From: Rhodocollybia butyracea
Lineage: Eukaryota > Basidiomycota > Agaricomycetes > Agaricales > Omphalotaceae
Reading direction: 5' to 3'
Length of the DNA: 64,000 nucleotides
Assembly (NCBI GenBank): GCA_015501585.1
Contig: JADNRY010000018.1
Span: 310,001-374,000, forward strand
The number at the start of each line of letters is the position of its first letter. Position 1 is the first letter of the stretch. Position numbers and translations under genes: made by a program. The notes below the pieces were generated by a model. That model was not told the DNA's origin and ran no database searches. It worked only from the letters and a program-made list of their open reading frames with translations. Below, one piece after another: positions 10,529-50,216 of the stretch.

Positions 10529-10530
10529 CT

Positions 10531-21975: not shown

Positions 21976-22403
21976 GGTGGAATCTAATTTTATCGGATTT
22001 TACTACAAACCTAGTCCTTGGGTTAGTAGAGTTCATCTTCTTTGTCCTTTGTTCGCTAGTCCACAAGATTAGTGATCCCTCGGATAATACACCTGATTCA
22101 GAGTCAACTCTTTCCGGAGTAGGCGAACTTCCTGATCCGGGAACATCTGAATTAAGACGCAGTAAAAGAGTACCTAAACCTCGAGAACGATATAATAGTA
22201 GCGTCGAGCCCGAACATTGACCTCCTTTTTCTGTCACTCGAGCAGGATCTAGCACTCCGTCTTCACGCGGATCTAAACCAAGCATAGTCCGTGCGACTTC
22301 TGAAACAACTCACGTTGCCAAGAAATCTTTAAAAGGGAAAGCGAAAGCACATCCCACTGATACTACTCAAGCCAGTTCAAGTACAAGGGGTGCTCCAGCC
22401 CAT

Positions 22404-23678
22404 GTGCAAGACAACTTGACTAGTCAACCTTCATCTTCAGCTTCATCACTTCCTTGTATTCCCGAGGAAATCTCTCAGTTAGCTACAGCAGTTAACCAAC
22501 TCTCGTCTTCTATTTTAAACAATCTTACAATGAGTACTACTACAAGCAATAACAACCCGGGTTCGAGCGGGAACGCTGGAGGTTCGAGTGGTTCTGGCGG
22601 ATCTGGTGGTGCAGCTCCCACGGGAACAAATGCTACGGTTGCGCAATTGTTTGGAGACAAAATTAAGTTAACACAAGATGAGCTCGATGAATATAACTCG
22701 AAGTACCTTCCTAAGCGTAGTAAAACGGCGACACTATTTAATAAAGATGATCCGTCTATGTTGAATGGTTGGATTGAGGATACTACTCGATTCATTGCCG
22801 CGGCAAACATTACCAAGGAAGCAGCGAAAGTGGCGTTGGCGTTGGACTGGATGACTTATTCCACTCGGGAAGCATACAAGTATCTACCCTCCGTAGCAAC
22901 TCCTAATTTGCAACAGTTCTTCAGAGATTTACGAGCAATCTTCTCGGAATTGGTAGATAGTGAGCTTGGTTCATGCCAAGAGCTCGAGATCTTAACCGGG
23001 AAGTTCACACCTCTGGACATTGGTAAACATCAAAAGATCATGATGTATAACCGAGAGTTTAAGAATCTCGTGGATAAGCTGATGAAACCGCTGGCAATCC
23101 TTTCCAACGCTGAAGCTGTCAAGGCATATCTTGTGCCCATGAGCGAAAGGTTGTATTTAGCGATTTCCGTGCGTTTGTCACAGAATGTTACACACGTTCA
23201 GTTGTTGTCTCGTCGCCGTGAAGATCCTTATCTACTTTCAGAAGTCATGGAAGCAGCCGAGAGTCCCGATTTCAGAACCCTTGATACCTATTATGGTAAT
23301 GGAGCTCGTCCAACTGGATCTCAAGGTGTTCCTGACTCTGCCGAAACTTATAGTCGAGGTGCATTATCGTTCAGATTCTCTCCTCATCTTCCAGAGACCA
23401 CTCCCGCGGATCCCGTGAAAGTGGAACCTAAGCAGGAAGAAGTGTCGGAAGTTCTCGCGGGAATCGCCTCGATTAAAGATACTATCGCTCTGAACAGGAA
23501 AGAGACTAATTTAGTCTTGGATGGTCACCAAAAGGCTATCTCCTCGATGATGAGCTTAATGAAGGATAATATAGAATCCAAACGCTCAGGATACAAGTCA
23601 ACGCAAGTTACTGCACCGCAGAATACCTCGAAGACCATTCCGGATTGGGGCAGGGTTGTTTTATGTGCGGGTCACTAG
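22404..23678 (+). pseudogene. Element A Gag (capsid part)
   Basis: A Gag-like frame, S/T-rich at the start then globular from about residue 75, with WIEDTTRFIAAANI and LQQFFRDLRAIFSELVD in the region where Ty3-type capsids lie. The frame is open upstream to 22221, where a TGA (22218) stands in a CGA-like context and is preceded by more open frame reaching the LTR, so the true start may be further 5' and is not fixed. The frame ends 20 nt after the zinc knuckle begins in the -1 frame. The step occurs around a G4 run at 23647-23650. Gag packages element RNA. Confidence 0.6.
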
Positions 23679-30825: not shown

Positions 30826-31398
30826 CGTGTTCGAGGTATTTATAACATTATGCATTTCCTTCCCGTGGAAAGAAACTTACCTTTGTGTCGAAGTTATGTT
30901 AATCTCAAGAACTCCATGTTATCATCAATACACGTGGATTTATTGGGCTTTTAAGACTGTAATAGTCAGAGGCCTATGTTAAAGATATAAACGAGTGACT
31001 ATAGGCTTAACTGGTACTGGAAACGAATTGCCGGAGCTCAGAGGCTACCAGGCGAAGAAGATAAAGAGACTGTAAAGACTGTGGTTTCTCGAGAGAAAGT
31101 TTATTTAAATAATTCGACTAGAAGCTCGATTCAGACAATGATATAGTGTCCGGAGAGAAAAACTTACAAGTTATTACCACTCCAATGATGCTAACAGGGA
31201 GGATTGACACATCGCACACTCCATCCCTGTACATTCACAACAACCGATGCTCACTGAAGGCATAGTGGATTAACGCCCGCTTGTCTGACAATGTTCAAGG
31301 GAAAGTTGACGTACGCCTTCTACCATTTCTGAGTCCTCTCTGAACTTCAAAAGGTGGACCAAGCTGTCTGTGACTTTCTGAGCTTGGAGAGCACAAGC
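30826..31398. other. 3' non-coding part of element A after integrase
   Basis: Between the integrase stop and the 3' end of antisense gene 1. AT-rich, with no open frame of note. A convergent termination region is expected here. Confidence 0.4.
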
Positions 31399-31573
31399 CT
31401 AAAAGACCTGGGTCTTGCTCAGGTTCCCGAGATACTCGTTCCTATGAATATTCAAGAGAACATTGAGATTGGTATTGGTCATCGAGGCAAAGTCGAGTTT
31501 GCCAAATTGGCCGGTCAAAGAAGCAAGGAATTGGCAATCTTGGCCACAACGCATTCGCGTCGCGCACGGGTAA
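31399..31573 (-). pseudogene. Antisense gene 1 of element A, last exon (beyond element B)
   Basis: Continuation of the antisense gene whose earlier exons lie at 42724-43989. It starts after an acceptor GGTTACGCAG (ends 31574) in the phase required by the donor at 42723, reads VTRARRECVVAKIANS, then needs a one-base shift to continue as LTGQFGKLDFASMTNTN to a TAG at 31399. Element B separates it from the rest of the gene. Confidence 0.5.
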
Positions 31574-31609
31574 CTGCGTAACCGATGTAAGTCGAATTTG
31601 TTAAAACAT

Positions 31610-33135
31610 TGACACGCCGAATTACGCTGTACGCCGAAATTCAAGCGAAATGTCATCATTTAAAAGACCCCGTGAAACACGTCACGTCACTACCTAGGGT
31701 ACGTTATGTATTAGACACTTTGAAGGTCCACTTCAGGTATCTAGTATGTAGAAACCCATTTGAAGGGAGATACACTATGTTTTAAGAGGCTACATTACTG
31801 TGCAAGGATGCATCGTTGACCCACAAACTCAAAATCAATCAAATTGATTTACCTAGATTGATTTAGGCTTGCCAGATCTAAAGTCTATTCAATTAATACT
31901 ACCTACTACAAAAAGTCCTATACAGGGATATACAAGACAGGATTAAAATAGATGAAGAGAGACGAATGAGGGCAAGCATAATGCGAACCCATATCCGTTT
32001 AAAGTAAGAAATCGAAGCACTGGTTCCATGGAACGAACTACAGAGAGAAACTAGACGATTAGTGATGAATTAGGCGCCGGGGATCAAAGTGGCCCGGCGC
32101 CGGCAGTAAAAGAAAGGCGGGGCGCGTCCTAGCGACGTGCCTATAATAAAATTTATTCGGACCGACCTACGGGACGGTCCACATGTATACAAGTACCCGG
32201 TAGGACCCGGGAGGAGAAGAGAAAAGGGGAGATACGGAACGACGCCGCAAACTTGAACCGCGGGACGGACGGACCGCCCGGCGCTTAAAGCGCATCAGAG
32301 TCGAACCACTCAACGGGAATGCATCGTTCTTCCCTCCCCTCCGTTACTTATTAAATAAAAGATCTAGAAAAGGTGTAATATGGGTAGAGGACCCATGAGA
32401 CAATGATATAGAGCCCTGGGGACAGTGTAGGAACCAGGAGAACACTTATAAGCTCAGTTATGGCTAACAAGGGCAACATGAGATTTATCTTCTTGGCTCT
32501 TGGCAAGCCAAGAGAGTCTTACCAACCCATGGTACCTTAATTAAGAAAATTTCAAGGACCTAGGAGTATAAAAAGGCAAGGAAATGAAGAAAAAAGCATT
32601 CTTTCTTACCCCCACCAGGTGTAGCAGCTCCTTATCAGGCTACTACTAAAAGATTGAATTGATATAAAGACTGGGATTTACAGAGAGAAATTGACAAGCA
32701 ATTGAACTTGAGTAAAGAGACAGAAAGAGATTCAGTGTGAACTGAGTGCAGAGAAGTTAAGACAAAGACTTAGAAAGGACTTTGAATATTATTTTCAAAC
32801 CACAGTTAGGCTGCAGTCAGAGCTCTGTCTGAGTTATAGGGACACCCTCTGGTCAGTTGTGACTTGTGTTAATTTGTGATTTTACCAAGGGACTTAGGAA
32901 TAGTATTTGTTTGACAGCTCAGAGCTTGGGGATCAGCTTAAATAAGTCTGTACTTTGAAAGGGAAGGCACTTAGTGAAATAACACTCAGTGTAGCAAGGA
33001 AGCACTTGAATAGATTGAAGTTTAAAATATATATTATTTGGCTGAACTAAAAACCCGAACTGAGTAATAAGTTGTGTGTGTGTTTGGTGTGGTTGTGTAA
33101 GCCATTTCTAAGTTCACCCCAGTTTAGACCTCTCA
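31610..33135 (+). repeat. 5' LTR of element B
   Basis: 1,526 bp. Carries about 19 bp more than the 3' LTR near 32,467-32,500. It contains a GC-rich hairpin (GGCGCCGG..CCCGGCGCC) near 32,070-32,100. Confidence 0.9.
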
Positions 33136-33137
33136 TC

Positions 33138-33154
33138 TGGAGCCCACCGCGAGG
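33138..33154 (+). promoter_or_regulatory. Primer binding site of element B
   Basis: TGGAGCCCACCGCGAGG, 2 nt after the LTR and identical to the site in element A. Confidence 0.7.
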
Positions 33155-33256
33155 GTATTAGCAGCCCAGATTTTATTTTTTTGGACCTATACATTTATCA
33201 CTTGCTTGATATAAAAAGGCCTACCACAGCCAACCCAAAAGAGACAGAGAACAACT

Positions 33257-34540
33257 GTGTTATCTAACACTATTGGTGACCGAGTTCATACCCGCGCTTC
33301 TGCTAAGGCAAAGCAACAACTTGAAAACCAACAGTCTGCTAGCACAAGGCCCTCTCAGAGCACTTCAAGACTTGAAGGAACTTCGCCCTCAATTGCCCAA
33401 AGAGCTAGAAATTTAGCTACAAGTGCAACACAAGGAAGAATTAATTCTAACTTGAACACTCAGAGAACTAGACCTACGTCTCCAGTTTCAAACCAACCTA
33501 CAAACACAAACTTGCCATTACAAAATCAGATAGTCAGAATGAGTCCTTCTATGCCAAGACCTGGTACCAGGGATGCTCCTGCTCTAACTGTTGAAGGGAC
33601 TGATGACCCTTTAAAAGTCAGAAGATATTTTGAAGAGTTAGAAAATCTGTTCAGTGACTGTTCAGTGACTGACCAGGATGAAAAGAGAAAGTGGAGTCTG
33701 AGATACCCAGATGGAAGTGTGTCTTGGGAGTGGAAGGCTTTGCCTGAAGCTTCTGACACTACTAAGACATTTGAGGAGTTCAAGAGAGCAGTTCTTGCCA
33801 GCTACCCAGGTGCCTCAGATGAAGAAAGAGGAACTATAAGAGAGTTGAATAGATTGTTCAAGAAGTACAAAAATATTGATAGCACAGACTTGGATGAGTA
33901 CTTGTCACTTATCAGAAAGTTTAGAGCAATCACGCTAGAGTTGAACCCACCTGCCTTGGCTGGTGCAGCAGTACAAATTGCGCCTCTTGTTACAAACAGA
34001 GAACTTGTGGAGAAATTCACAGGAGCTTTGGAGGCAGGCTTCAGGACCACAATTTTTTCTGCTTTGCACTTAAAAGGAAAAAGCAGGAAAGTTCCTGTGG
34101 GTCAGAAAGCAAGACAGGATGATTTGTATGAGATTGATGATGTGATTAGACAAGGTGAAGAGATAGTTAGGGGAACGATGCCAGGGATTTATACCCCAAC
34201 CTATGACAAACCCAAAGACAACTCTTCATCTGAAGCTAGAAATAGAGTAAAGTCAGAGCACCTGCAACAGGAAATGAAAGATTTGATGTCAGAAAAGATG
34301 GCAGTTCTTTTGGACACCATCAAAATAAGTCAGAATGAGTTAAGACAGGAGAACTCCAAGCAGATGGATGATCTCTTGAGAACATTTCAACAGAGTAATG
34401 TGGAGAGGAGTTCTGGACAAACAAGTCAGTACTCCAACCAAAGGACCTCTGGGGATATAGTAATCGAGATAACAGACCTCCGCAAAGTGATCCCCAGACT
34501 CGCTGGGCTTGTTTTTTTTGTAATGAAGAAGGTCATATGA
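33257..34540 (+). CDS. Element B Gag (capsid part)
   Basis: Open frame with the capsid-like segment DDPLKVRRYFEELENLFSD and a downstream coiled, Q/K-rich part (QQEMKDLMSEK). The frame is open from 33215, but the first in-frame ATG is at about 33539, near MSPSMPRPGTRDAP; upstream translation would need a non-AUG start or splicing. The natural sequence switches to the -1 frame near the G4 run at 34451-34454, ahead of the zinc knuckle. Confidence 0.65.
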   Translation: MLSNTIGDRVHTRASAKAKQQLENQQSASTRPSQSTSRLEGTSPSIAQRARNLATSATQGRINSNLNTQRTRPTSPVSNQPTNTNLPLQNQIVRMSPSMPRPGTRDAPALTVEGTDDPLKVRRYFEELENLFSDCSVTDQDEKRKWSLRYPDGSVSWEWKALPEASDTTKTFEEFKRAVLASYPGASDEERGTIRELNRLFKKYKNIDSTDLDEYLSLIRKFRAITLELNPPALAGAAVQIAPLVTNRELVEKFTGALEAGFRTTIFSALHLKGKSRKVPVGQKARQDDLYEIDDVIRQGEEIVRGTMPGIYTPTYDKPKDNSSSEARNRVKSEHLQQEMKDLMSEKMAVLLDTIKISQNELRQENSKQMDDLLRTFQQSNVERSSGQTSQYSNQRTSGDIVIEITDLRKVIPRLAGLVFFVMKKVI

Positions 34541-35169
34541 GAGATGAGTGTTCGCATAGGGCAGATCTATTAGAATTGGGTAGAATTATTCTGGTGAATG
34601 GCAGAGTCCGCTTACCAGGAAATTTTCCTATTCCAAGAGAGCCGGTTGGTGCTGTCTGTGAAAAGGACAGGATTGACTTTTATTATGCAAATAAAGGACA
34701 GAAGGAGAGATCTGTGAACTTAGTACAGAGTACTCCCATGCATGTACCGGGAATGATCAACACTGCTACTATGTCCACTTATCTAAGTAATCAGTTAGAC
34801 TCCAGAGAAATGAAGATTGCTCAGTTAGAAAAAGAGTTGCAGAGTATGAAAAACCCTCAGCCTCAGATGTATAATGCATATGAGCAGAGTTATGCTATGC
34901 CCACTCAACAGAGTCAATTTTCACAAGTTGGATGGACTCCACCTGGAACTCAGTATGTGAACCCCATGGGAATTCCCATGAACCAGTTTTTGAACCAGAG
35001 TCAGTTCACCCCCAATAACGGCATGAACTGGGGATCTCAAAATAATATGAGTAGTGTCAATTCTATGACACAACTTGTACAACAGAGTCCCGTTCAGCCA
35101 ACTTTGAAGGAGTTAGAAGCCTTTGTTCAAACTCGGAGGCAGCAAGAACGTGAGCAGCAGGAAAAATGA
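34456..35169 (+). CDS. Element B nucleocapsid segment, -1 frame
   Basis: After a basic stretch (YSNRDNRPPQ) comes the zinc knuckle CFFCNEEGHMRDEC at 34510-34551, then a Q/M/N-rich tail. It ends GAA AAA TGA, where TGA overlaps the ATG of the protease frame (ATGA, 35166-35169). Re-initiation or a -1 slip on the A run (35162-35166) could both reach the protease. Confidence 0.65.
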   Translation, partial: YSNRDNRPPQSDPQTRWACFFCNEEGHMRDECSHRADLLELGRIILVNGRVRLPGNFPIPREPVGAVCEKDRIDFYYANKGQKERSVNLVQSTPMHVPGMINTATMSTYLSNQLDSREMKIAQLEKELQSMKNPQPQMYNAYEQSYAMPTQQSQFSQVGWTPPGTQYVNPMGIPMNQFLNQSQFTPNNGMNWGSQNNMSSVNSMTQLVQQSPVQPTLKELEAFVQTRRQQEREQQEK

Positions 35170-36368
35170 AGAGTTCAATGATTAGGACCAAAGCTGTGAC
35201 CAAGTCCTCTGAGAACCATTCTCCTCCAGCAAATAAAGCTTATGTTTCTGTTCCCCCTGTACCTGTAATAAATAAAAGAAGAGATGTGTCAAAATCAAAA
35301 GATGGTGATCTTGATTTTGAAATTAGTGAAATACCAGCAAACCCGTTTCTAAATGTGAAAGATGTGTCTGAACTCCCAGTGTTAGGGATGTCAAGTGATG
35401 AGAAAGCAAGCGAGAGATTTCACCAAGTAGAGGACAAGGAGCCTGCCTATAATTTTGTTGCACCGATAGAGAAATCTGGAAATGTGCGCACCATTGTAGA
35501 AAAGATTCTTGACAGTGAAGTCACTCTCAAAACTAGTGAACTGTTGGCTGCGGCCAAACCTATTAGAGAAGAGTTGAAAGCTAGAGTTAGTCAACAGAAG
35601 GTGCCAGTAAGGAATACGCCTGCCCTAGTCAAGTCCCAGTTTGAAGGGATCAGTCTAGATCACAGTGCCATAGATGTCCAAAACTTACCTACTGTGACTT
35701 GGGAAAAAGTGGAGAAAGCTAAATCCAACAATGGAGAGACTGTGTCTGCCTATGTGGTTGGTGATGTTGTTCTACAATACCTAGAAGCTCTAAGTCCAGA
35801 AGAGAAACCCAAACAAATAGTGGTAGCCTCTGACTCACAAAGTCTAAGGTCTATTTACCCACTCTTGAATGGAAGAAATCATGTAGAGTGTCTGTTGGAC
35901 TCTGGTTCACAGATTGTATCCATATCTCAGAATCAAGCTGAGAAGTCGAGTTTAGTTTGGGACCCTGATATTGTGATTTACATGCAGAGTGCAAATAAGA
36001 GCTTAGACAAATCTTTAGGATTGGCAAGGAATGTACCATTCCTGTTTGGAGATATGACTGTATTATTACAAGTACATGTCATCAGATCCCCAGCCTATGA
36101 TGTACTCTTAGGAAGGCCCTTTGACACTCTGATGCAAACTCAAATTCAGAATTATGCTGATGGAAGACAGATAGTGACCTTGAATGATCCAATGTCTAGT
36201 AGAAGGTTAACCATACCTACCTTTGCAAGAGGAACTGCTGCCATTATGACAAAGAGGCCGCCAAGTGTTGACATCAAGGAGGATGTAAGAGAGGAGATAA
36301 AGATGGCAAGAGAGAACTCAGACACTAAAGAAAAGGTGGAGGGTTTTCTGTTAACCTTGAGGATTTGA
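35166..36368 (+). CDS. Element B protease
   Basis: 400 codons. The N-terminal half is a polar linker. The retropepsin shows LLDSGSQIVSIS with catalytic Asp at residue 245 (codon 35898-35900), and VLLGRPFDTLM at the C-terminal side, both close to element A. The frame ends shortly after a GGGTTTT heptamer. Confidence 0.8.
   Translation: MKSSMIRTKAVTKSSENHSPPANKAYVSVPPVPVINKRRDVSKSKDGDLDFEISEIPANPFLNVKDVSELPVLGMSSDEKASERFHQVEDKEPAYNFVAPIEKSGNVRTIVEKILDSEVTLKTSELLAAAKPIREELKARVSQQKVPVRNTPALVKSQFEGISLDHSAIDVQNLPTVTWEKVEKAKSNNGETVSAYVVGDVVLQYLEALSPEEKPKQIVVASDSQSLRSIYPLLNGRNHVECLLDSGSQIVSISQNQAEKSSLVWDPDIVIYMQSANKSLDKSLGLARNVPFLFGDMTVLLQVHVIRSPAYDVLLGRPFDTLMQTQIQNYADGRQIVTLNDPMSSRRLTIPTFARGTAAIMTKRPPSVDIKEDVREEIKMARENSDTKEKVEGFLLTLRI
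36341..36347 (+). promoter_or_regulatory. -1 frameshift heptamer, protease/RT junction of B
   Basis: Read in the protease frame as GA(G GGT TTT) CTG, a perfect X XXY YYZ site. A -1 slip gives TCT GTT AAC CTT GAG GAT, the NLEDL peptide shared with A. The 0-frame stop follows 21 nt later. Confidence 0.75.
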
Positions 36369-37822
36369 TAGAGAAAGATCAAGGAGAGGTAGCAGTCATC
36401 TTTGAAATTGACAAGTCTATGAATATAACAATTCAGGACTATTGTCTACCCAAAAGAGAAAGATTTTCTCCTGTACAACTGAGAAACGCTTACTTGGCTA
36501 AGTCCTTGCATGCAACTCAGAATGATAAAAAGGCTCAATTTACCCTGTATAATTTCTTGCATGATACCTATGAAGAAGAAAAGCCAAGCGTGGGAGTTCC
36601 GTCTGACAGTCAATATGCCTACCAAACCGTGGAAGTTGAACTCGATGATAGACCTCCTCACTTGAGAAAACCTAGAGAAAATGGGGAAAAAGTGGAAAAA
36701 CCAAAAACAATTGATAATTTCTTTAAGTCCATTAAGGTGCCAAAAACATTTAAAAAGACTAAGTCCCTTGGGACACTAAAAAGAATAGAAAATATCAAAA
36801 AGACAAAAACAGTTGATGATACCCAGAGGAGTTTCTATTCCTCAGTTTCTGATTCCCTACCCACTCTGGGTTGTAACCCAAAAGAGCCTGTTCATTCTGT
36901 GTATAAATACAAGCCTGTTGCCAAGAAAGTTAGACCAATTGTTGGTGAACTTCCTCAACACTTCAGGATAGTGAGAAAGATAGATGGAGATCCATTGAAG
37001 GATATGCCTGAACTTAGCAGGAATCCTCCAGATTTCACACCTACTGGGAGGTATACTCAGGAGAGGAAGGAGGTCATAGACAATGCTCATTCCGAGGATT
37101 TTCTATGGCCAGAAGAGAGAAAGTTGTTGCATCATTTTATGATGGTGCAAGAAAAAGGATTTGCATGGAATGATGAAGAGAGGGGAAAGTTCAGAGAGGA
37201 CTTCTTCCCACCTGTAGAAATGCCTGTAGTCCCTCATACTCCTTGGGTCCAGAAGAATATTCCAATTCCCCCTGGTACTTATGATGAAGTATGTAAAGTT
37301 GTTAGGACTAAGATGGAGGCAGGAGTGTTTGAACCTTCAAACTCATCTTATAGATCAAGATGGTTTGGAGTTCTCAAGAAAGATGGAAAGTCAATAAGGA
37401 TTGTACAGAGTTTAGAGCCATTGAATGCAGTTACCATACAACACTCTGGATTACCTCCTGCAACAGATGAGTTAGCAGAACAATTTGCTGGCTACTCCTG
37501 TGGAGCAATCTTAGATATGTATGTGGGTTATGATGAGAGGACACTAGCAGAGTCATCTAGGGACTTGACAACTTTCCAGACGCCTTATGGAGCACTTAGG
37601 TTAACCACCTTACCCATGGGTTGGACCAATTCAGTCCCTATATTCCATGATGATGTTACCTATATGTTGAGAGAGGAGATCCCCATGTCACAAGACCTTA
37701 CATTGATGATGTTCCAATTAAGGGTCCTAAGACAAGGTATGAATTACCTAATGGAGGATATGAAACTATCCCTGAAAATCCTGGTATACGCAGATTTGTC
37801 TGGGAGCACTTTCAGAATGTGA
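36365..37822 (+). pseudogene. Element B RT, first part
   Basis: Continues from the frameshift site through the linker to the RT (GRYTQERKEVIDN, IRIVQSLEPLN, LPMGWTNS). After EEIP the coding sense moves to the -1 frame: a CCCC run at 37681-37684 lacks one C compared with the expected reading. The catalytic YIDD (37699-37710) is in the next frame. A mutation or assembly error is likely, although CCC can re-pair perfectly after a -1 slip. Confidence 0.8.
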
Positions 37823-40413
37823 ATAGAGTAGTTCAAAGAGTAAAGTACTGTGGAGGTACCTTCTCTGGATTTAAAGCAAGCATTTGTTGTTCAGAGTTTA
37901 AAGTTGTTGGATACAGATGTAGCTATGAGGGAAGAATTGTAGACCCAGACTTGATGGGAGTTATTGAGAGATGGGGACCTTGTAAAAATATCTCTGATGT
38001 CAGGAGCTTCTTAGGAACTACTGGGGTCTGTAGAATGTTTGTCAAGAACTATGCAAAAATTGCAGAACCTATCAATAGACTCAGAAAGGAGGGGGTGCCC
38101 TTTGAATGGACGTCTGAACAGCAGAAAGCTATGGATAACTTGAAGCAGGCAATTAGGGAGTCCCCTGCACTTAGGAAAATTGACTATACTAGTCCAGAAC
38201 CTGTAATTCTGTCGGTTGATAGTTCCTTTAAGGGAGTGGGATTCTACATTGCACAACAGGATGATGAGACCCGAAAAAGGCATTACGCGAGATTTGGGTC
38301 CATCACCTACAATGACAGGGAAGCCAGGTTTTCACAACCTAAGAGAGAGTTGTATGGTCTATACAGAGCCTTATTTGCTTGTAAGTATTGGCTCTTTGGA
38401 ATTAGAAATTTAAAAGTTGAGGTGGATGCAAAATTCATTAAGGGGATGATCCAACACCCTGATGAGGTGCCAAACGCGGCCATCAACAGGTGGATTGAAC
38501 AGATCCTGATGTACCACTTTGATCTTAGACATATTCCAGGAAGGTTACATGGATCTGATGGATTGTCTAGAAGAGACTGGGAAATTGGAGATGAAGTGTA
38601 TTATAACCCTGAGCTGGAGTATCAGGCGGATGAGAAGTCTTGCACTTTCTCCTTTGAAGGTGGAATAGATACCACCATCCCCTGGGAAGAGTTTAAAGAT
38701 GAGATTGATACCCGTACTGGTTTCCTTCATGAAATTGCGGAGTCTGTACAAGACTTTGTGAAAACTGCAGAGGATGCTAGTATGAAAGAACAGTTTTTGA
38801 GAGGAAAGATTGCACAGGAGGATACCTCCACTGCACCTTTGCTTGCAGCCCTTCCACAGGCTGTCAAGCCACAGCCTTATATTAGCGAGGAAAAGTATGA
38901 AGAAGGACACAGATCAGAGAGAGGTAAAGAGCAGGACAACAGGCTCCTCAGTGTAAGGACCTGGTTAAAAGACCCTGCTTGGAAGCCAGATTTTGTGAAA
39001 GACAATGAGAACCACTATTTGAACTTCAAACAATTTGCCAGACAATTCTTCTTGAAAGATGACAAGTTGTACAAAAGGGATATTGAGGGTAAACATTGTC
39101 TAGTTGTGGGGAAGGAACACAGAATGTCAATGATGAAAGCGGCTCATGATAGTCTTGGGCACAGGGGTGTCTTTGCCACTAAAGCTTTGTTATCTGAGAG
39201 ATTCTGGTGGCCTGAACTAGATAGAGATGCCAACTGGTATGTGAAGACATGCCACTTGTGTCAGGAAAGATTGAAAGAATTGATTAGGACCCCGCCTAAG
39301 CTTACATCCACCCCTTCTATTTTACAAGTCCTTCATGCAGACACTATGCATATGCCAAAGTCAAATAATAAAAAGTACTTTGTGCATGGCAGGTGCCATG
39401 TTTCAAGTTGGATGGAGGGGAGGGCACTCCAGAAAGAAACTGGAAAAGCAATTGGTGATTGGATGTTTGAGGACATTATATGCAGATGGGGGTGTCTAGC
39501 TGTAATCTACACAGATAATGGTCCACCATTTGTAAATGCACTTAAATATTTGTCAGAGAGATATGGAATCAAAGGGATTAGGATTGCTCCCTATAATTCA
39601 CAAGCTAATGGGAAGATAGAGAGACCACACTGGGATGTCAGACAGGCCCTTTACAAGGCTGCCAATGGTATCCAATCTAAGTGGGCTTTCCATGTCTCAG
39701 AAGTGATGTGGGCTGATAGAATTACTGTTAGAAAGAGATTGGGTTGTTCCCCCTTCTTTGCCATGACAGGAGCACACCCAGTCCTCCCCTTTGACATCAT
39801 GCAAGCAACTTGGCTCATGCAAGTGCCAGGACATGTACTTAGTACTACTGAGTTAATTGGACTTAGAGCCAGAGCTCTGTCTCTGCATGCAGACCATGTT
39901 AAAGATATAATGAGTTCCATAGACCATGAGAAGAGAGAAAGAACACTAAGATATGAGAAGATGCATGCTCACACTATCAAAAGCTTTGACTTCAAACCAG
40001 GGAACCTTGTACTAGTGAGAAATTCACAAGTGGAGAACTCCCTTAATGCTAAAATGATGCCAAGATGGTGGGGCCCCTGCATAATTATTAGAAAGACTAA
40101 GGGAGGAGCTTATGTAGTTGCCGAAATGGATGGATCAGTTTTTCAAAACAAGATCTCACCATTTCGGGTCAGGCCTTACAACGCCCGGCATAAAATTACA
40201 CTTCCCGAGAATCTATCTACACTTACGGGACTTACTCCCGAGGAACTCGAAAGAATTGTTCAAGGGCCAGAGCCCAGCGAGAAAGATGTTAGTTCCGAAG
40301 AGTCCAAAATAATTTCAGAAGAAGTTAATTTTGAGTTTGATCGGATCAGTGATTATGAATACGATAACACGATCACCGAGCCGAGGATCAGAGGCGAACG
40401 AGAAAATGATTAA
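37685..40413 (+). CDS. Element B RT end, RNase H and integrase
   Basis: Frame 37819-40413, with the natural reading starting at about 37685 and including YIDD. RNase H (LSVDSSFKGVGFYI, DGLSRRD) is followed by a linker and integrase: zinc region (HDSLGHRG, CHLCQ), catalytic residues in HADTMHM, YTDNGPPF and the Glu of GKIERPHWD (codon 39619-39621). A GPY/F-like segment (RWWGPCIIIRKTKGG) and an acidic tail end the protein. All integrase catalytic residues are present, unlike in A. Confidence 0.85.
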
Positions 40414-40725
40414 GTGAGGAGACCTGAGGAGACTGCGAGGAGATCAAAAGGAGAAGGTAAAGGAAGATCTGTCAGAATTCTGCCAGATTTCACAAGTAAA
40501 GAGAAGTGGCGAGTATGGACTTAGCAAATGAACTCAAAGTAAAATCATATATGAGCTTAGTTCACGTGCGCAAGTTCAAGTGACGGCGTACAAAAATTTT
40601 GTATTAAGTCAAAACCGTGTACAAACAAAGTACACTAAATTATGTAGAGAATAGGCGAGCCGACTATTTAGAAGGCCCGGCGACATGAAGCAAGTTAAGA
40701 GAAAGAGAGACGATTGGTGAATAGA

Positions 40726-40917
40726 CTATAAAAGAGGAAAAAGACGGTCACGCACAGTCTTCTCGCACATATCCGTAGCCATTCCAGCAAAAGAATAAAA
40801 GTTGGAGGCATATCCGGAAGACTCAGCGAGTTTCTTGTTGTATTCCTGAAAGGCCGAGAGAATCTCAGCTTTAAGAGCCAAATACTCGGGACTAGACATA
40901 GCAGCAGGCGTAGACAT
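40726..40917 (-). CDS. Short antisense ORF of element B
   Basis: 63 codons on the strand opposite to gag-pol, between integrase and the 3' LTR, starting MSTPAAMSSPEYLALKAEIL and strongly helical. A TATTTAAG box lies about 85 nt upstream (40999-41006). The position, about 270 nt inside the polypurine tract, matches that of the first exon of antisense gene 1 in A relative to A's internal tract at 44146. Sequence similarity to that exon is weak. Function unknown; chance cannot be excluded for so short a frame. Confidence 0.35.
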   Translation of the reverse strand: MSTPAAMSSPEYLALKAEILSAFQEYNKKLAESSGYASNFYSFAGMATDMCEKTVRDRLFPLL

Positions 40918-41188
40918 CTTGGATAGACGAGTTGAGTAGCGAGCAGCGAGAAGTTGGGAGGCAGGATTCAACGGGCCATGGAAAAGTCGCTGAAAAGTCT
41001 TAAATACTCAAAGAAAATGACTTAGAGGGCGTAAAACTTACTGCGGCTCAAAGATACTGCTGAAAACAAATCCGCACGCAAAAAGAATAGGCCGACGTGG
41101 TGACCAGACCCCGGAGAAAACCCATCGTATTTTGGGGAAGGGCGTGAAAGATAAAAAGAAGAACTGGGGACAGTTCAGATTTAAGTAA

Positions 41189-41196
41189 GGGGGAGA
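41189..41196 (+). promoter_or_regulatory. Polypurine tract of element B
   Basis: GGGGGAGA directly before the 3' LTR, identical to the tract of element A. Confidence 0.75.
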
Positions 41197-42704
41197 TGAC
41201 ACGCCGAATTACGCTGTACGCCGAAATTCAAGCGAAATGTCATCATTTAAAAGACCCCGTGAAACACGTCACGTCACTACCTAGGGTACGTTATGTATTA
41301 GACACTTTGAAGGTCCACTTCAGGTATCTAGTATGTAGAAACCCATTTGAAGGGAGATACACTATGTTTTAAGAGGCTACATTACTGTGCAAGGATGCAT
41401 CGTTGACCCACAAACTCAAAATCAATCAAATTGATTTACCTAGATTGATTTAGGCTTGCCAGATCTAAAGTCTATTCAATTAATACTACCTACTACAAAA
41501 AGTCCTATACAGGGATATACAAGACAGGATTAAAATAGATGAAGAGAGACGAATGAGGGCAAGCATAATGCGAACCCATATCCGTTTAAAGTAAGAAAAT
41601 CGAAGCACTGGTTCCATGGAACGAACTACAGAGAGAAACTAGACGATTAGTGATGAATTAGGCGCCGGGGATCAAAGTGGCCCGGCGCCGGCAGTAAAAG
41701 AAAGGCGGGGCGCGTCCTAGCGACATGCCTATAATAAAGTTTATTCGGACCGACCTACGGGACGGTCCACATGTATACAAGTACCCGGTAGGACCCGGGA
41801 GGAGAAGAGAAAAGGGGAGATACGGAACGACGCCGCAAACTTGAACCGCGGGACGGACGGACCGCCCGGCGCTTAAAGCGCATCAAAGTCGAACCACTCA
41901 TCGGGAATGCATCGTTCTTCCCTCCCCTCCGTTACTTATTAAATAAAAGGTGTAGAAAAGGTGTAATATGGGTAGAGGACCCATGAGACAATGATATAGA
42001 GCCCTGGGGACAGTGTAGGAACCAGGAGAACACTTACAAGCTCACTTATGGCTTCAAAGGCTTGGCTCTTGGCAAGCCAAGAGAGTCTTACCAACCCATG
42101 GTACCTTAATTAAGAAAATTTCAAGGACCTAAGAGTATAAAAAGGCAAGGAAATGAAGAAAAAAGCATTCTTTCTTACCCCCACCAGGTGTAGCAGCTCC
42201 TTATCAGGCTACTACTAAAAGATTGAATTGATATAAAGACTGGGATTTACAGAGAGAAATTGACAAGCAATTGAACTTGAGTAAAGAGACAGAAAGAGAT
42301 TCAGTGTGAACTGAGTGCAGAGAAGTTAAGACAAAGACTTAGAAAGGACTTTGAATATTATTTTCAAACCACAGTTAGGCTGCAGTCAGAGCTCTGTCTG
42401 AGTTATAGGGACACCCTCTGGTCAGTTGTGACTTGTGTTAATTTGTGATTTTACCAAGAGACTTAGGAATAGTATTTGTTTGACAGCTCAGAGCTTGGGG
42501 ATCAGCTTAAATAAGTCTGTACTTTGAAAGGGAAGGCACTTAGTGAAATAACACTCAGTGTAGCAAGGAAGCACTTGAATAGATTGAAGTTTAAAATATA
42601 TATTATTTGGCTGAACTAAAAACCCGAACTGAGTAATAAGTTGTGTGTGTGTTTGGTGTGGTTGTGTAAGCCATTTCTAAGTTCACCCCAGTTTAGACCT
42701 CTCA
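41197..42704 (+). repeat. 3' LTR of element B
   Basis: 1,508 bp, about 99% identical by eye to 31610-33135 and followed by the ACAT target duplication. Confidence 0.9.
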
Positions 42705-42723
42705 ACATGTTATAAATACTCAC

Positions 42724-43989
42724 CAGCATCAATGAGCTCAGCATCGAAACGCATGCACTTTCCGTACTCATTGACAAGACTGGCCGCTTCATTGGCAACA
42801 GGGGTTTCCTCGACTTTCCTCTTAAGTGATGAAGTACTCACTTCACCGGAAGCCTATGTGGAGAGGTCAGCCAAAGTGTTTACAGGGCCCGAGGAAAGGA
42901 TCTAAGTACCTTGGCCTTCGAGGACTTCCTAGACTCTCGGGTCTTCTTCCTTGAAGCCTGAGCGCGAGCCAGCGCGTTAGTAATTTCCGGGGGATCCTGG
43001 AACTCTTTAGTCAGTACGACCGCTCGTTGATTCCAAGCCCAAGAGCCAAATGGTCCTTTTGGGAGAGGCAGGCCCGAGCGTGAGTGGTAACACTACGGTT
43101 CCTTCAGCACAGTTATCGTGGGATCCGTACAGGCACACGCTTCATGGATTTTATAATATATGTTAAGAAAAGAGAACTTACGAATGCGATCTGCGTAGCG
43201 GGATGACCTTCCTCCATGGGTTCATCCTCGTCATCGATGAGAATGGTACCTTTAGAGCTACTAGAGCTTTTAGTCGACTTCGAGGGTTTTTTGGACTCCT
43301 TGGAGAACGAGATGGTAGAAAGAGCGGCGGATTTTGCCGCATAATCGGTGGTCTTGTCATCGTTGGCAGCACTGGACGCCCCTACATTGTGTTTAGACGG
43401 AAGACAGTAGTCCAGGATGGTAGCATAGCGAGAAGGCTTACCGCGGGTAGTGGTGAAAGGGCCCGGCCCTGTAGTACCAGTGACTCCCGAGGAAACCTTC
43501 TTCGACGCCGCCTGGATTGGTATCTATAAGTGTTTGTTCTCGGATATGTTAAAACAGGCTTACCAGCGCAAGGTTGAGCTTGTTGATGAAATTGCTGAGG
43601 CGCACAGCAGTCGCAGAATGAGCAGTCTTGGCGCTGGGACAGATCTTCATCGCGCGGAGAAGGAGGTCATGTCCTTGCTCAAGGACACCAACGTTCGCGG
43701 GGAATTTGAGTACTTTCTCCTTATGAAACAACGTGGTCTATGGAGGCAGGATATCAAGGTCAGGCTCCCGTGGAAAAGGCGAAAAGAGACTCACAAGAAG
43801 GTTGACGTGCTTTTGTACAGTACTAAGAACCTCTGCCTGAAGGAGAGTCTGATCCTCGAGGTACTCGATTGCATCACGGAGACGACTGGTAGCCTCTTTG
43901 AGTGTTCTGGTGGAGGCAACAATGGCTTCCATAGTATTCTTCATGAACTGCGGTTTGTCATCGGTATTTTGGGTGTTCTTGGAAGACAT
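42724..43989 (-). pseudogene. Antisense gene 1 of element A, exons 1-4
   Basis: Exons 43989-43564, 43523-43182, 43092-42910 and 42853-42724 join in consistent phases (0, 0, 0, 1). Introns of 40, 89 and 56 nt have good ends (GTAAGC, GTAAGT, GTACTT; CTTATAG, CCGTAG, CACATAG). The next intron begins GTGAGT at 42723 and is where element B inserted; without B it is 51 nt and leads to the exon at 31573-31399. The product would be about 415 residues: a helical N-terminus (MEAIVASTRTLKEATSRLRD), S/K-rich middle with an acidic DDEDEP patch, a GPFGSWAWNQRAVVLT segment, and a basic KKTRESRKSSK stretch. One TAG interrupts exon 1 (43738-43740). TATAAAAG lies 70 nt upstream of the ATG. Family not recognised. 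Confidence 0.6.
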
Positions 43990-44057
43990 TGTAGAGAGAC
44001 TTGTAGTTCGAGGAAAAGTTTTCTGAGAACTGGGTCTTGAAATGTTTTTCGCGGACG

Positions 44058-44065
44058 CTTTTATA
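44058..44065 (-). promoter_or_regulatory. TATA box candidate for antisense gene 1
   Basis: TATAAAAG on the minus strand, about 70 nt upstream of the ATG at 43989, a normal distance for a fungal promoter. It suggests that the antisense gene has its own promoter inside the element. Confidence 0.45.
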
Positions 44066-44145
44066 GGTTAATGTCTTAGAGCGACGGAGTCCTACGGGTC
44101 CCCGGCGCGTTCTGAAACCCAAGTGCTCAACTGAGGACAGTTGAT

Positions 44146-44168
44146 ATCATTAGTTTGGGGAGGGAAGC
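44146..44168 (+). promoter_or_regulatory. Internal polypurine-like tract of element A
   Basis: ATCATTAGTTTGGGG (44146-44160), followed by AGGGAAG, is identical over 15 nt to the sequence just before the terminal polypurine tract (48371-48385). The preceding GAGGACAGTTGAT also resembles the upstream parts of the terminal tracts of A and B. Confidence 0.5.
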
Positions 44169-45024
44169 GCATGGTGCCAAGGCACCATAGCTCCAGGCAG
44201 TCCACCATCACGAGGAGAATTTTGAATTTATTCAACGACATCTATGACCAAAATAGGAACCATAACATTGCTCAACAAAAGGGAGAACACTAGGCAAAAC
44301 ATAAAGCGAACGCTTAAAGAGTATTAGAAGCGGCACGGGGAAACCTAACGCAGGTACCTCACCGCGATAATTCTCCGGAAGACGAAAACGCTAGGAAAAA
44401 CCTTACACCCATAATATCGAGCATCAATGGATTTCAGTTTGACGGTCATCACTATGCCCTAAACAGGACCTGATCCAAGATTGGATGTTGTATTGAAAGA
44501 ATGTCAATATCTAGGGAAAGATTGCATCGCACCCAGCTTACTTAGGGATGATGAGTCTTCTCTAGGCTTTCCCTCGAAGACTTGATTACACCTTTAACGA
44601 ACCGTATAGGTTCCCAAGGGCGGGAATTCGAGTCATAAAAAGCTTTCCGCGAGTATACTCCACATGCTACAAAGAGCTGGTACGGTACTCAAGGAAAACT
44701 TATGCTATTATAACAAAACTCTCGAGAATAGGCTAGCGTGCTGTAAGCCTTTCCGAGAGTAAACTTAAGACTTAGGAAGTCACTCGAGTATGATATGTAC
44801 ACAGTGAACCGAAGGTCTTGATATTGATAGGCTTTATTTACGGTATTCTAAAGGTGCCTATATACCTAAGAATACCACGATACTGCCCCAGAAAGGGGAG
44901 ACAAAAGAGAAATCCCCATGCGAGGGGCGAGCGACGAAATATGATAGAAAAGGAAATTTATTTAACGTCCGAGGACAAACAGCAATGCCAACGGCGGCCC
45001 AGACTCCGAGAAGAACAAGGAAAG
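44169..45024. other. Spacer between the two antisense genes of A
   Basis: No convincing exon on either strand. A small inverted repeat CATGGTGCC/GGCACCATAG lies at about 44171-44190. Probably the promoter of antisense gene 1 and the 3' flank of antisense gene 2. Confidence 0.4.
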
Positions 45025-48000
45025 CTAAGGGGAAGTGGTTTTGACATCTGATAATGTCTCAACTCCCTCCATTAGCTGGTCCACTGGCTTGTCCTGGTCG
45101 ATAACAGACCCAGCGACAGGCAAACCCGGGTTCTCACGGGGAGTACCAGCCATCGACGCTTCTTCATCTCGAGGACTCCCAGTAGGTGGCACGACTGATT
45201 CTTCATCGAAAAGACCAGTTGCTGAACGAGAAGGAGATCCTCAGGGAGACGAAGTACCAGCGGGCACCCCAGAATCGTTCTCGAGGGCGCTCTCCACAGA
45301 AGCCGGAACCACAGCGGCGTGCATGATGCTCTTCAGGAAGTCTTGATAAGCCTGGTTGGTCGGGAAGAGTAGTCCATCTCCACTTCATAAAGGAGCATAA
45401 GAAACTCCAATCCGTGAGAGACAACTCTTTCTCGGGAAGGATCGGCACGAAAGACTCGAGGAAAACCTGAGGGTCAGGAGCCATGCTGCGGAGCTCTTGT
45501 ATTTCATGCTGCAAAGCGTCAAAAGTGCTCGAGATGGACACGTTGAGCTGTTCCCTGGCCTTAATTGCTGCATCGTAACAAGTACGGATGCGAGCAATCG
45601 TGTTGACCTGCTTGGCAATATCTAAACATGAACATTAATAAAAAGAAGTTAAAAGAGAACAAAAGAAAAATACTCACTAACTCGCGAACCCTTCGATGCT
45701 TCGTAGGTCTCATCGAGTACCTCCACTACTTCTGGTACCTGAAGCGTGTCCGAGCAAGTCTGATGGGAGAGTGCACAATTATCGCAAGAAGCACCGAACC
45801 TCCGGTTTCCGTCGTCATCTAGACGATAGGTACACGGCAGGCGGTCCTCTCCCTTGGAATCTGTTGGCGGCGCGCAGCGCATTGGAGGCAAGGTATCTCG
45901 CGAGCGACAACATCCATCTAAAAACGGAAAATATTAATAAAGTCATAACCGTCGGAAAAGTTTACATACGTTACAGAAGGCACGGTTGGTGCGAAGGAAG
46001 ACTCGCCAAGACATCTGGTGCGTCCCGGTACTAACGGCCGGGAGGTCCAGGAAAGCGTCTAACTCGGGTGTAACACCCCAAGTCATGCTAGTCTTGAAAA
46101 GCTCCTTTGGCTTCTGAAAAGGGCAGGCATTAGTCTATCAAACAAGTTACGAGAAAGGGGACAGACGAACCTGGTTGCCGCGTGGAAGGATTTCCTCGAA
46201 CGAGGGCAAATCCAGGGCGTCTCGCTCAAAGCGTACGATAACCGTCCTATATTCTGTAGACCCTGGGGCCACAAACTCCTTCGAGGAATGGGATGCCAGG
46301 CGTCGAAAGAGACTATCAAGGTCCAGAGAATCTACGTCCTCATCAGGAACGAGGAAGACCAGGTTTTCCGGCGGAACTGGGGCGGGAGTAGGTTCACGAG
46401 AAGGCGCTAAAGGAGCGGTATTCTTGAGCCTCAAGCTAGATGCTACAGGAACCGGAATTTCCACCACCGGAACGAGCTTCTTACCGGCCTTTGTCGGACA
46501 AGGGACAGGAATGCTCTCCGCCTCAGCCTCATCAACCACGTCGTTGAGGCGCTTGCGCTTAAGACTGGGAGGCTGGTAGAAGGTGTTAAAATAAGTCTAG
46601 GGAGAGAAGAGAAGGAAACTTACCACGACTGGGTCAGATATCACTTCCTTTCCCTTTCCCTTTCCTTTTGCATCCTGCACCTTGTTTTGCTCTTACCCTT
46701 GGGAGGTCCCGCGAGTTTGGCAACTGCTGGTGGTGCTTTGGGCTTCGACGTTTTCGTTGTCTTGACGTCAGGAGAGATCCTGGAGGTTTTTGGGACTTTA
46801 GGAATGGACAAGGTTTTCACCTCTTTCGAGGCCTTGGGAACGATCGGCGGGGCTGGGGCCTTCTTTGTCTTCTTGTCCGAAACCACTGCAGGTGGCGGAG
46901 CAGGAGGAACCTTGCTCTTCCTGCGACCTCTCGATTTCCGGGTCGGGTAACGAGAAAGTTTCTCTCCAGCCGGAGACGCCTAAAAGAGAAATAAAATGTT
47001 TAAAAGAAATTTATAATAAAGGAAGAAAAACCTACCCTCGAGTGGGACGGAGGCTCCTCATAAGCCGACCGTTCACTGTTGGAAGGAACGTCGCTGGCCT
47101 CTTCTACCTCTTCCTCCCCCTCCTCAGAAATAGACTTAGGAGCATCAAGAACACCAGTGTCAATGGGTTCTTGATCCCCTAGCCAGTCCGTTTCTCAACA
47201 GTCCTTGTCGAGTGGAATTGAAATGGGAGGAAATGAAGGTTCGCGTACTCCTATAAGGTGACAATGAATAAGTTAAAACATAAACAAAATGATAAATAGA
47301 AATGTACCAGGATTTCTTGGACCATATGGTCGGCCAGGTACCATGCTGGTTCCGCACTTGGAGAAGTCTCCGTTCGACGAACAATTCGGGATAGCCTCTG
47401 GCAAGACACCACAATGCTCTCGATAATGAGAGGGCAGGATCGCCGTCCCAAGACGTGAGTACGGAGGAAGATCTACGACAATCTCTTGAGAGCAGAAGGA
47501 GATAGAAGCCACTTACGAGTCGAGGAGTCAGGATAGAAAACGCAAGGCGAACAGCCCTCGTTTCTTTGCCTGGCTGGTAAGACTTGTCATTGGCCACGGC
47601 CAAGAGATGTGGCGATAGTTTGCGCTGAATAGCAACAGCTGCGGCCCATATCATTCTGGCAGAATACTCGCGCGGAATGTCTCCTAGGATCGGGAGTCGA
47701 CCGATATCTTGACCAATAAAATATGACTCTTGTTGCGTCAGGTTAGGAATCTCGAATTTCTGCACCAGTGGCTCAGCTAGTGCGAAAAAGGAAGGTTTCT
47801 CGCTTTTGAAGTTGTCGAGGAGATTGTCGGAGTCGGAAGAGGATGAGAGAGCAAGATAAGCCTCAATTACGTCTGAGGGCAGCGTAGGCCACCAGTCGGG
47901 AAGGCCTTCTTCAGCGGAGATGGTGGTGGGGGAGACGATGATGGGACTTGTTGAAAAATTTTCAACATTGCCTTATCAATAGATCGTTGCCCAAAGCCAT

Positions 48001-48169
48001 AGCCAAAGTGACCGGCATCTGTTTTAAGACGTAAAACAACATATCACAAAATACGAATGTGATAGAGGCGTTTTCAGAGTTCTCGAAGACTTAACACGTT
48101 AAACTTAAAGAAAATGTTATCGAGGAAATGATTGGGATCCCCAATCAGGAGTCTAGGCGCCCGCGGCAT
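45025..48169 (-). pseudogene. Antisense gene 2 of element A, multi-exon
   Basis: Reads from an ATG at 48169 to a TAG at 45025 through at least nine exons separated by about 50-nt introns. Segments in order: NVLSLREL..KRLYHIRIL..YVVLRLKTDAGHFGYGFGQRS; PDWWPTLPSDVIEAY..TQQESYFIGQDIGRLPILGD; RRSCPLIIESIVVSCQRL; an acidic exon (ISEEGEEEVEEASD); a K/P-rich basic exon (YPTRKSRGRRKSK); PVPCPTKAGKKLVP..PENLVFLVPDEDVDSLD; MTWGVTPELDAFLDLP; a Cys-rich segment with CLQC, PC and CDNCALSHQTC; and a helical end (VNTIARIRTCYDAA). The cysteine pattern CxxC..C..CxxCxxxxxxC suggests zinc binding. At least four TGA codons sit where CGA would be read, plus a few one-base frame breaks. Family not recognised. Confidence 0.55.
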
Positions 48170-48381
48170 ATGTTGTCTTGTAGATCAATTCAATTGTTGA
48201 CACCTGATTCACATAAGCGCCCGATGTCGAGAATGATCCCAGTTAAACTTAGGGGTAGTATGTCCAGACTAGTCCGCGGGAAAGGAATTAGAATGCTAAA
48301 TGCCGAGAACATAAAAGGGATTGCTAGCAGAGTCGATCCTAGGCTTGGTGGGCTGACCGGGGACGGTCAGATCATTAGTTT

Positions 48382-48389
48382 GGGGGAGA
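48382..48389 (+). promoter_or_regulatory. Polypurine tract of element A
   Basis: GGGGGAGA immediately before the 3' LTR start TATTAGG. It sets the LTR boundary. Confidence 0.75.
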
Positions 48390-50216
48390 TATTAGGCCTA
48401 AAATCGGCCTAAGGCGTGTAACCGTACATTTTGACACTTTGTACGTGTTATACAATGCAATAAGAGAGTTATACGGAGCCCGAGCGTGATAGCTGTTGCC
48501 GAGGCAAAGAACTTAACAATAATACTCAGCGAGCCATGAAGGTACGCCCACAAGCGTAGCCTAGAGCCAAGCTAGCGAGGATACCTGGGCTGCCCGGAGA
48601 TGTAACGCTAGATCGTCAATCTAGTTATACCCAAAGAGTGTAGACTCTCTAAACTACAGGACATCTCGAAGCGGGATAAGTACTAAGCCAACGCGTTACT
48701 CGAGGGAAGGCATCCCTCGCACTAAGACCCCCAACGAGCTATGTTAAGATGTGGACTTTACAGTCCGTAACAATGGACTAGAACGATCCCGAGGAAACCG
48801 TAGAGATCTATTCGCGGCCCCGGTCGCGACCGTGAGGACGGTAGAAACATGCTTAGCGGACCTACGGAAAGCTACGCGCCGGGATAGCCTTGGCAAATCG
48901 AAACATTTGATCTTAGAAATCATACACGGAAGGTCTTATCCGTTAAAGCCGACTATCAGGAATCACTTGTACATACTCAGCGCAGTTGCTCAAGATTATC
49001 ATAAGTGGTGTCGTTGGAAAGCTAGATAACAGGCCTTCTCGAGAGAATGTTAATCACACTCAGGAGGGACAGAACTATCCGAGGAATAGAATGAAACTCA
49101 CCCAAGGGAAACCGGGCGGCGAGTGATCATGAAGCGCAAAGGTACTCCTGACCCCGGAGAATTGTGGAGTAATCGGAGAAACCTCGCTCGGATCAAAACA
49201 CTCTAAAACTATGTTAATCCTCACGAAATCATATTTTACCTCTGATATATACCCAAGAATGGACTATTTCTTTATCGTGTGTACCATATATAGGCTGGAG
49301 TTTCCTTTCTGAGCCAGATTCCTCTGTTCCACTCTCTTTCCATCTCTCTCCGTATCTGTTTCATCTATTTTTTGTATTAAACTCTCTCTACTCAGTATAT
49401 AAGCCAGATATATTTATTCAATAAGACAAGTTTCTTGCCCTTGACTTGACTGCTAAGACCAGTGCTCCGTAGAACGTCCCCGCGGGATCAGTAGCGTGAC
49501 GCCTCCTGACTTGGTTATCTTAAGAAAGTAATAAACTTCACGCGCTTCGCAAAGCCCATTTATATCTTGATCGAATTTAAGTGTGTAGAGTTCTCTCGAA
49601 CTCCAGATCAACTCAAATCTAGTTGCTTCCTTAGAGGGGACGGCTTCTAGTAACGGATTATTTGGCTCCAGAGTGAGGGTTCCTTAGTTGACTTCTTCAC
49701 GAAGTTAGACGAGCCGCTAAGATTGTGGTACGAGTTCCTAGTGATTAAGTTCACTCACAATATCGTAGCTTGGCCCAGAGTTTGGTTGAGGACTTTACGG
49801 CGTCACAGCAGCTAGTGCCAGAGTTTGCCTAGGGTTGTTGACAAACCTCGAGATTACTATTCTAGCTAGAGCCAGAGTTTGCCTAGGAGAATCTTAGTTT
49901 CGTTGTATTGGTTTTGGTTTTGGTTAATTGATTTGGACATACACATCTGGTTCCCTCGTACACTCGTACACCCCAACTAGGCTTCTCTCGACTTAGTTCT
50001 AAGAGTTGTCTAAGCTTAGTTACCCACGTTAGCGCTACAGTCTTGAACCTGGAGCAGTCGCGCGCGTACATCCGATATTACAAAGCTTTCCCTCGGGGAA
50101 TCTCTGACAACCCGCCCTCGCTCCCTTACATATCGATAGTCTGGTTAGGTGCGGTAGTGTTTTTGTTAGGTTGTTTTATAGCACCTTTCGCATACCTACA
50201 CGTAAATACCCAAATA
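48390..50216 (+). repeat. 3' LTR of element A
   Basis: 1,827 bp, about 98% identical by eye to 20116-21956. Ends CCAAATA. Confidence 0.85.

Follow-up and report, generated by a model that had tools for sequence, protein, structure and literature searches.

Two predicted intron-bearing antisense genes, one of them hypervariable, in a Ty3/Gypsy retrotransposon family of Rhodocollybia butyracea

Can a long terminal repeat (LTR) retrotransposon carry protein genes with introns, and hand those introns on to its new copies? The question is raised by a 64,000-nucleotide stretch of the Rhodocollybia butyracea genome (contig JADNRY010000018.1; C472:310001-374000 in our numbering), called the window below, in whose coordinates all positions are given. 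A Ty3/Gypsy element in the window, element A, contains a long region between its integrase (29419..30825, plus strand) and its 3' LTR (48388..50216, plus strand, approximate edges), and the original prediction placed two spliced genes on the minus strand of this region and regarded them as genuine genes mobilised together with the element. Copies were compared across the 95.6-Mb assembly (1381 contigs), and their distribution, codon constraint and intron conservation support that view. We consider it probable that the element A family (18-19 kb) carries two predicted intron-bearing antisense protein genes under purifying selection, and that the second, gene 2, is a likely nuclear zinc-binding factor, likely swapped between copies as a cassette.

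The genome was searched with window 43000-48300, which gave at least 42 matching places; 35 loci were fetched, and a spliced open reading frame (ORF) search run on each copy yielded recurring exon chains. Antisense scores were 786, 754 and 812 in the gene 2 region (copies L004, L016 and L022) and 435 and 438 in the gene 1 region (L004 and L020), whereas the sense strand reached 453-538 and 271-290, respectively, and the best of 50 dinucleotide shuffles each no more than 641 and 357. The antisense strand came top in all five tests, and the two minus-strand exon chains proposed originally are real, beyond chance.

Gene 1 is predicted to have six coding exons and a product of about 445 amino acids. 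As placed by comparison of copies, its exons lie on the minus strand at 43795..43989 (with the start ATG), 43564..43737, 43182..43523, 42910..43092, 42724..42853 and 31271..31573. The start at 43989 agrees with the first model, whose five exons, end at 31399 and length of about 415 amino acids had to be replaced, the gene now ending near 31271. Full-length open models are found in other copies, such as L020, with exons of 195, 174, 345, 183, 145 and 298 nucleotides and GT-AG intron ends; the last exon measures 303 nucleotides in the window copy, where the frame is lost. A database fragment of unstated origin (P0004) has nearly the same C-terminal end as gene 1.

Gene 2 is predicted to have eight coding exons, a product of about 800-840 amino acids and six invariant cysteines. 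In the class I alignment (the window and 15 loci) its minus-strand exons are 47517..47921, 47308..47472, 47036..47250, 46624..46979, 46171..46572, 45970..46113, 45678..45917 and 45025..45621, the last ending with the stop at 45025. Only this end survives from the earlier model of about nine exons starting at 48169, the start now lying near 47921; the cysteine segment that it described is present, as exon 7 carries a CxxC...CxxCxxxHxxC motif. At 47921 the window copy has ATC; of 12 other class I copies that reach this position, 11 have ATG. Relative to L002, the window copy contains two stops and frame-changing gaps. Full-length open gene 2 models occur in L002 (class I) and L022 (class II), and the exons of a public R. 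butyracea protein matching gene 2 (P0001) match at C1371 at 97-99%.

Ratios of nonsynonymous to synonymous substitution (dN/dS) were obtained from Nei-Gojobori counts in the antisense frame and in frames shifted from it, codons with gaps or stops being skipped. For gene 1, 29 of the 35 loci could be used (six lacked an end) and 28 copies were compared with L020; in the 13 copies with at least 20 differences, dN/dS was 0.16-0.57 in the antisense frame versus 0.70-2.78 and 0.58-1.33 in the shifted frames, and variable sites at the codon positions numbered 72/447, 62/447 and 124/446. For gene 2, 15 comparisons with L002 gave 0.13-0.36 versus 1.02-2.34 and 0.67-2.03. Class I (L002) and class II (L022) gene 2 products are 48% identical over 787 codons, the proportions of synonymous and nonsynonymous differences being 0.72 and 0.35. 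The antisense codons of both genes are under purifying selection, as genuine minus-strand genes had been expected to show.

The consistent exon phases and normal intron ends noted at the outset were also found to be kept across copies. In gene 1, GT and AG are retained in 28-29 of 29 copies per intron; introns 1, 3, 4 and 5 are present in all 29 (the intron 3 acceptor being altered in one), and intron 2 is mostly deleted in one. All seven gene 2 introns have equal phase and alignment position in L002 and L022, one of them shifted by a single column, and, by inspection, the last three junctions also correspond in L036, whose gene 2 is about 30% identical. Introns are seldom lost: among the 16 class I rows, intron 1 is gone in L014, and introns 1, 3 and 6 have changed splice dinucleotides in one or two rows (the intron 5 donor was left uncounted because it falls in an alignment gap); among nine class II copies, L032 has lost introns 5 and 6, and introns 1 and 7 each have a single acceptor that is absent or altered. 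The sense genomic RNA would be the replicating form, and because the introns are read backwards in it, they would remain unspliced and pass intact to new copies; the antisense messenger RNAs would be spliced and translated by the host.

The strongest feature of the system, which the original prediction did not mention, is the hypervariability of gene 2. Between L004 (class I) and L022 or L024 (class II), identity is mostly 97-100% in the LTR side, the spacer, gene 1 and towards the integrase, but it falls at the gene 2 ATG to about 50-75% inside gene 2; from start to stop, gene 2 differs by about 43% between copies that are mostly 97-100% identical on both sides. A filter for gene 2 and both flanks was passed by 22 copies, 16 of which also had gene 1. 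Over the 120 pairs of these 16, gene 2 had a median divergence of 35.9%, the upstream part 4.4%, the spacer 3.6% and gene 1 0.7%. Among the 66 pairs with gene 1 at most 1% apart, gene 2 differs by at least 8% in 56, by at least 40% in 32 and by at most 1% in only 7, and the correlation of gene 2 with gene 1 divergence is 0.12. Scores of integrase, reverse transcriptase (RT) and gag against the window are similar for both classes, the integrase score being 1074.5 for C91, C379 and C459 (class I) and C919 (class II) alike; the diversity is therefore special to gene 2 in the parts examined, which for gag and pol are the matched parts. A supposed class III proved to be a BLAST-extension artefact, those copies carrying class II.

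The alleles are also mosaic. Grouped by the 5' part of gene 2, the 22 copies fall into five sets; the middle of the gene again gives five sets, with a different composition, and the 3' end gives three. When L001 is compared with L007, the first eight windows differ by 19-39% and the other thirteen by 0-1%, and the first seven windows of L001 are 4-11% from L002; gene 2 of L001 is a mosaic allele. Since mosaic alleles join tracts differing by 0-1% to tracts differing by 19-39%, a mutational hotspot was discarded as an explanation. Retroelements recombine by template switching, and gene 2 alleles may be exchanged between copies in this way, from co-packaged RNAs, or by gene conversion. Selection for rare alleles, exerted by host silencing or by other element copies, would then keep old gene 2 alleles while the family stays uniform, which is the step of which we are least sure. 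Gene 2 is likely a regulator, and its diversity is likely kept by selection for rare types. It can more tentatively be read as a multi-allelic "identity" gene under long-term balancing selection, a start-to-stop cassette by which near-identical copies would present different regulatory or counter-defence versions to the host and to each other, much like the immunity modules that differ between related phages.

The main rival accepts both antisense genes and takes the gene 2 diversity as neutral, the alleles having entered by recombination with sister families that are now rare or lost. Sister families of the same layout do exist (L036, L037 and C555), and the mosaics fit recombination as such, so that neutral introgression is possible, if rather doubtful. 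It does not readily account for five 5'-part groups among 22 copies whose gag, pol and gene 1 matches are nearly uniform, or for a divergence that sets in sharply at the ATG and has faded a few hundred bases after the stop; moreover, introgression should leave diverged tracts elsewhere, but pairwise divergence reaches no more than 6% in both gene 1 and the spacer and 12% in the part upstream, against a maximum of 48% in gene 2.

The distribution of gene 1 was followed among integrase-bearing copies. Of 96 integrase rows, 78 were used (the other 18 being further pieces at loci already listed), together with 49 gene 1 C-terminal matches. Within 6.5 kb downstream of the integrase, antisense gene 1 is present in 34 of the 40 rows with at least 88% identity, which bears out the expectation that the region is common to copies, in 6 of 10 rows at 60-87% (diverged or degraded copies) and in none of 28 rows below 60% (including the nested element B described below); no sense-strand gene 1 occurred among the 78 rows. 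The diverged elements L036 and L037 carry antisense relatives of gene 1 (44-53% amino acid identity, C-terminal part) and of gene 2 (about 30%), and in L036 the gene 2 relative has gene 1 on one side and an LTR-like match (75%) on the other. Database searches yielded two R. butyracea proteins, which match gene 2, and four short unassigned gene 1 fragments. A gene-2-like gene was also seen at L038 (C1072:246700-250500; 27-40% amino acid identity in matched parts), gene-2-like matches with near-equal scores lying at C1072, C1325, C205 and C14, and the gene 1 C-terminal search gave no match at these four loci.

That the two are passenger host genes, captured once and carried by the element without use, is very improbable. 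Their introns and host-like structure would suit such an origin, as would the gene-2-like genes lacking a gene 1 match on the same contig (C1072/L038 and others), but it is contradicted by the codon constraint between copies, by the presence of relatives of both genes in families whose integrase is 77-79% identical, and by antisense gene 1 in those 34 of 40 close copies.

The gene 2 motif is C-x2-C-xn-C-x15-C-x2-C-x3-H-x2-C, with n = 15 in class I, 18 in class II and 8 in L036, and its six cysteines and one histidine are invariant in gene 2 alignment A1. A KRKR cluster is found in gene 2 of both classes and basic clusters in gene 1, and neither protein has a stretch hydrophobic enough for a membrane span. 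These basic clusters, the motif and the lack of a membrane-span stretch suggest that the products are nuclear rather than envelope proteins, and gene 2 probably encodes a nuclear zinc-binding factor. It had no Pfam match to the fungal Zn2Cys6 domain (PF00172), whose spacing we take to be CxxC-x6-C...CxxC-x6-C; the second half of the gene 2 motif has x6, whereas in the first the spacing is the variable xn just given (x15, x18 or x8).

Another conceivable product is a non-coding antisense RNA, spliced and regulating the element through RNA pairing, its frames being incidental. Gypsy elements of Blumeria hordei provide a precedent, with spliced antisense long non-coding RNAs described as such in the accessible part of the report (PMC10648671). 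These share antisense splicing in fungal LTR elements with element A, where it is predicted, but differ in that the codons of element A are constrained. Because substitutions follow the antisense codons and protein motifs persist at about 30% identity, a non-coding role is scarcely credible. Chance open frames mirrored from sense coding sequence can practically be dismissed: dN/dS is lowered as well in the sense frame with the same wobble position as gene 1, but geometry requires this, that frame holds 17 stops in spliced gene 1, and the antisense scores beat the sense strand and all shuffles.

Several observations nevertheless weigh against element-borne, constrained genes with a selected gene 2 cassette. 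That lowered sense-frame dN/dS of gene 1 is one, as is its weakest pair, L017 (0.57 versus 0.90 and 0.61 in the shifted frames); for gene 2 the comparison covered the antisense frame and its shifted frames. Six of the 40 close integrase rows had no gene 1 match within 6.5 kb, and searches in which a part of the candidates was scored found no relatives outside R. butyracea. Identity between L004 and L022 or L024 recovers over a few hundred bases beyond the gene 2 stop, gene 2 divergence correlates with spacer divergence (0.59), and the uniformity of gag-pol refers to the matched parts of the copies. Balancing selection is deduced from the diversity peak alone, as the low gene 2 dN/dS gives no hint of positive selection. 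Scans of Pfam, NCBIfam, PDB sequences and, twice, viral_contigs gave no relative at usable significance (listed matches to Paf1, E 0.18, and haemoglobin, E about 0.7, were discounted as insignificant), so that the zinc-binding and nuclear roles depend on motifs, and the structure predicted for P0001 with P0002 has a mean predicted local distance difference test score of 33.9, too low to be of use. Transcription, splicing, nuclear role, zinc binding and the reason for the diversity are all inferred.

Among known systems, the closest in layout are plant Gypsy elements of the Retand/Tat lineage (Retand, Grande and RIRE2), for which the available parts of two reports describe antisense ORFs between pol and the 3' LTR (PMC11963269, PMC7264820). 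Position, orientation, a large region between pol and 3' LTR and a suspected nuclear or DNA-binding role are shared with element A, whose genes likewise lie in frames opposite to gag-pol, between pol and the 3' LTR, and are shared by copies. According to the same parts, the Retand antisense ORFs nearly always have a TRP28 domain, and the word "intron" is absent from the main text of both papers, whereas the element A genes have five and seven predicted introns. Element A further differs from Retand in being fungal, in having one hypervariable gene and in lacking TRP28: neither TRP28 (PF04195) nor bZIP had a Pfam match in two gene 2 alleles and gene 1. In HTLV-1 and its relatives, hbz and the related aph genes are antisense, have spliced transcripts and encode mostly nuclear regulatory proteins; hbz is driven from the 3' LTR and HBZ is a bZIP protein (PMC10186651, accessible part), and no homology with the element A genes is claimed. 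The constant gene 1 and variable gene 2 may act as accessory regulators by a logic like that of HTLV HBZ or that proposed for Retand antisense proteins.

The original prediction held an intron-bearing antisense gene in a fungal element to be new. As an antisense gene of a fungal Gypsy element it has a published counterpart in brtn, an additional gene of Boty-like elements of Botrytis cinerea (PMC8365987, PMC4227169, PMC5987419), which was compared by description, from the available parts of these papers; Boty gag-pol is described there as having a chromodomain, a difference from element A. The intron-bearing, hypervariable kind was not found in a fungal LTR element in our literature search, outside which most subscription papers lay, and the combination of several introns with a cassette-like hypervariable gene looks new relative to known antisense accessory genes.

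How might the two genes be expressed? The TATA box announced for gene 1 is present at 44059..44065 (minus strand), 76 nucleotides before the ATG; of the 34 loci whose ATG was recognised, 33 have it at -75 to -77, and it is a candidate antisense promoter. Gene 1 would be transcribed from this promoter of its own towards the integrase, and gene 2, in the same direction, from a promoter between its ATG and the 3' LTR. A hairpin with a polypurine tract adjoins the 3' LTR (48353..48389, plus strand), and a second copy of this motif, with a polypurine-tract-like part, is internal (44127..44164, plus strand). In 33 of the 34 loci the polypurine-like part of this internal copy lies 171-177 nucleotides ahead of the gene 1 start codon, and motifs resembling it occur in the diverged L036 and L037. 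The differences between the two hairpins, CTGACCG-GGGA-CGGTCAG and TCAACTG-AGGA-CAGTTGA, are paired. A hairpin of the same kind also precedes the polypurine tract of element B, an element lacking antisense gene 1; an antisense operator was therefore set aside and a plus-strand priming feature is more likely. The internal module may be a central plus-strand priming site (central polypurine tract) or an older 3'-end relic.

Element A itself extends over about 20114-50216. Its LTRs (the 5' one at 20114..21956, plus strand, approximate edges) are 1.83-1.84 kb long and 96.6% identical over 1843 columns, and a Pfam scan placed RT and ribonuclease H (RNase H) upstream of integrase, as in Ty3/Gypsy elements. 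The plus-strand ORF at 22221..23678 is called gag by position because Pfam gave no match; it shows 89-97% amino acid identity in most near-complete genome matches. In pol, the C-terminal part of RT, below the Pfam cut-off, and RNase H occupy 27631..29418 on the plus strand (PF17919, PF17917, PF00078), followed by integrase (PF17921; PF00665 below its cut-off); the RNase H domains and then the integrase H2C2 domain scored above cut-off, RVT_1 and rve below. About 1 kb without a long open frame (26650-27640) interrupts the RT region. The nested Gypsy element B (31610..42704, plus strand; LTRs 31610-33135 and 41197-42704), with ACAT repeated at both edges, is inserted in gene 1 intron 5 of the window copy, and antisense gene 1 was not found within 6.5 kb behind the B integrase. 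With this insertion and the lesions in gene 1, gene 2 and pol, the window copy of A is not intact.

Elsewhere in the window, 4944-5037 is a third stretch about 82% similar to part of the A LTR near the LTR start, which points to a relative of A in the neighbourhood. At 15279-16292 and 10524-12339 there are long inverted repeats whose arms (133-438 nucleotides, 88-98% complementary) lie close together. Direct repeats at 5973-6272 and 9694-9993 (3.7 kb apart) and at 54938-55069 and 56373-56504 (1.4 kb apart) are possibly the LTRs of further small elements.

Retrotransposons with antisense accessory genes were known before. In the clade studied here both genes are kept while gene 2 diverges to about 30% amino acid identity, and within one family gene 2 diversifies while gene 1 and pol stay nearly uniform. 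This pattern points to gene 2 as a possible site of conflict between element and host or between elements, and its alleles provide pairs for direct comparison. The element A family also illustrates a way in which introns can be carried through the cycle of a retroelement, namely in antisense.

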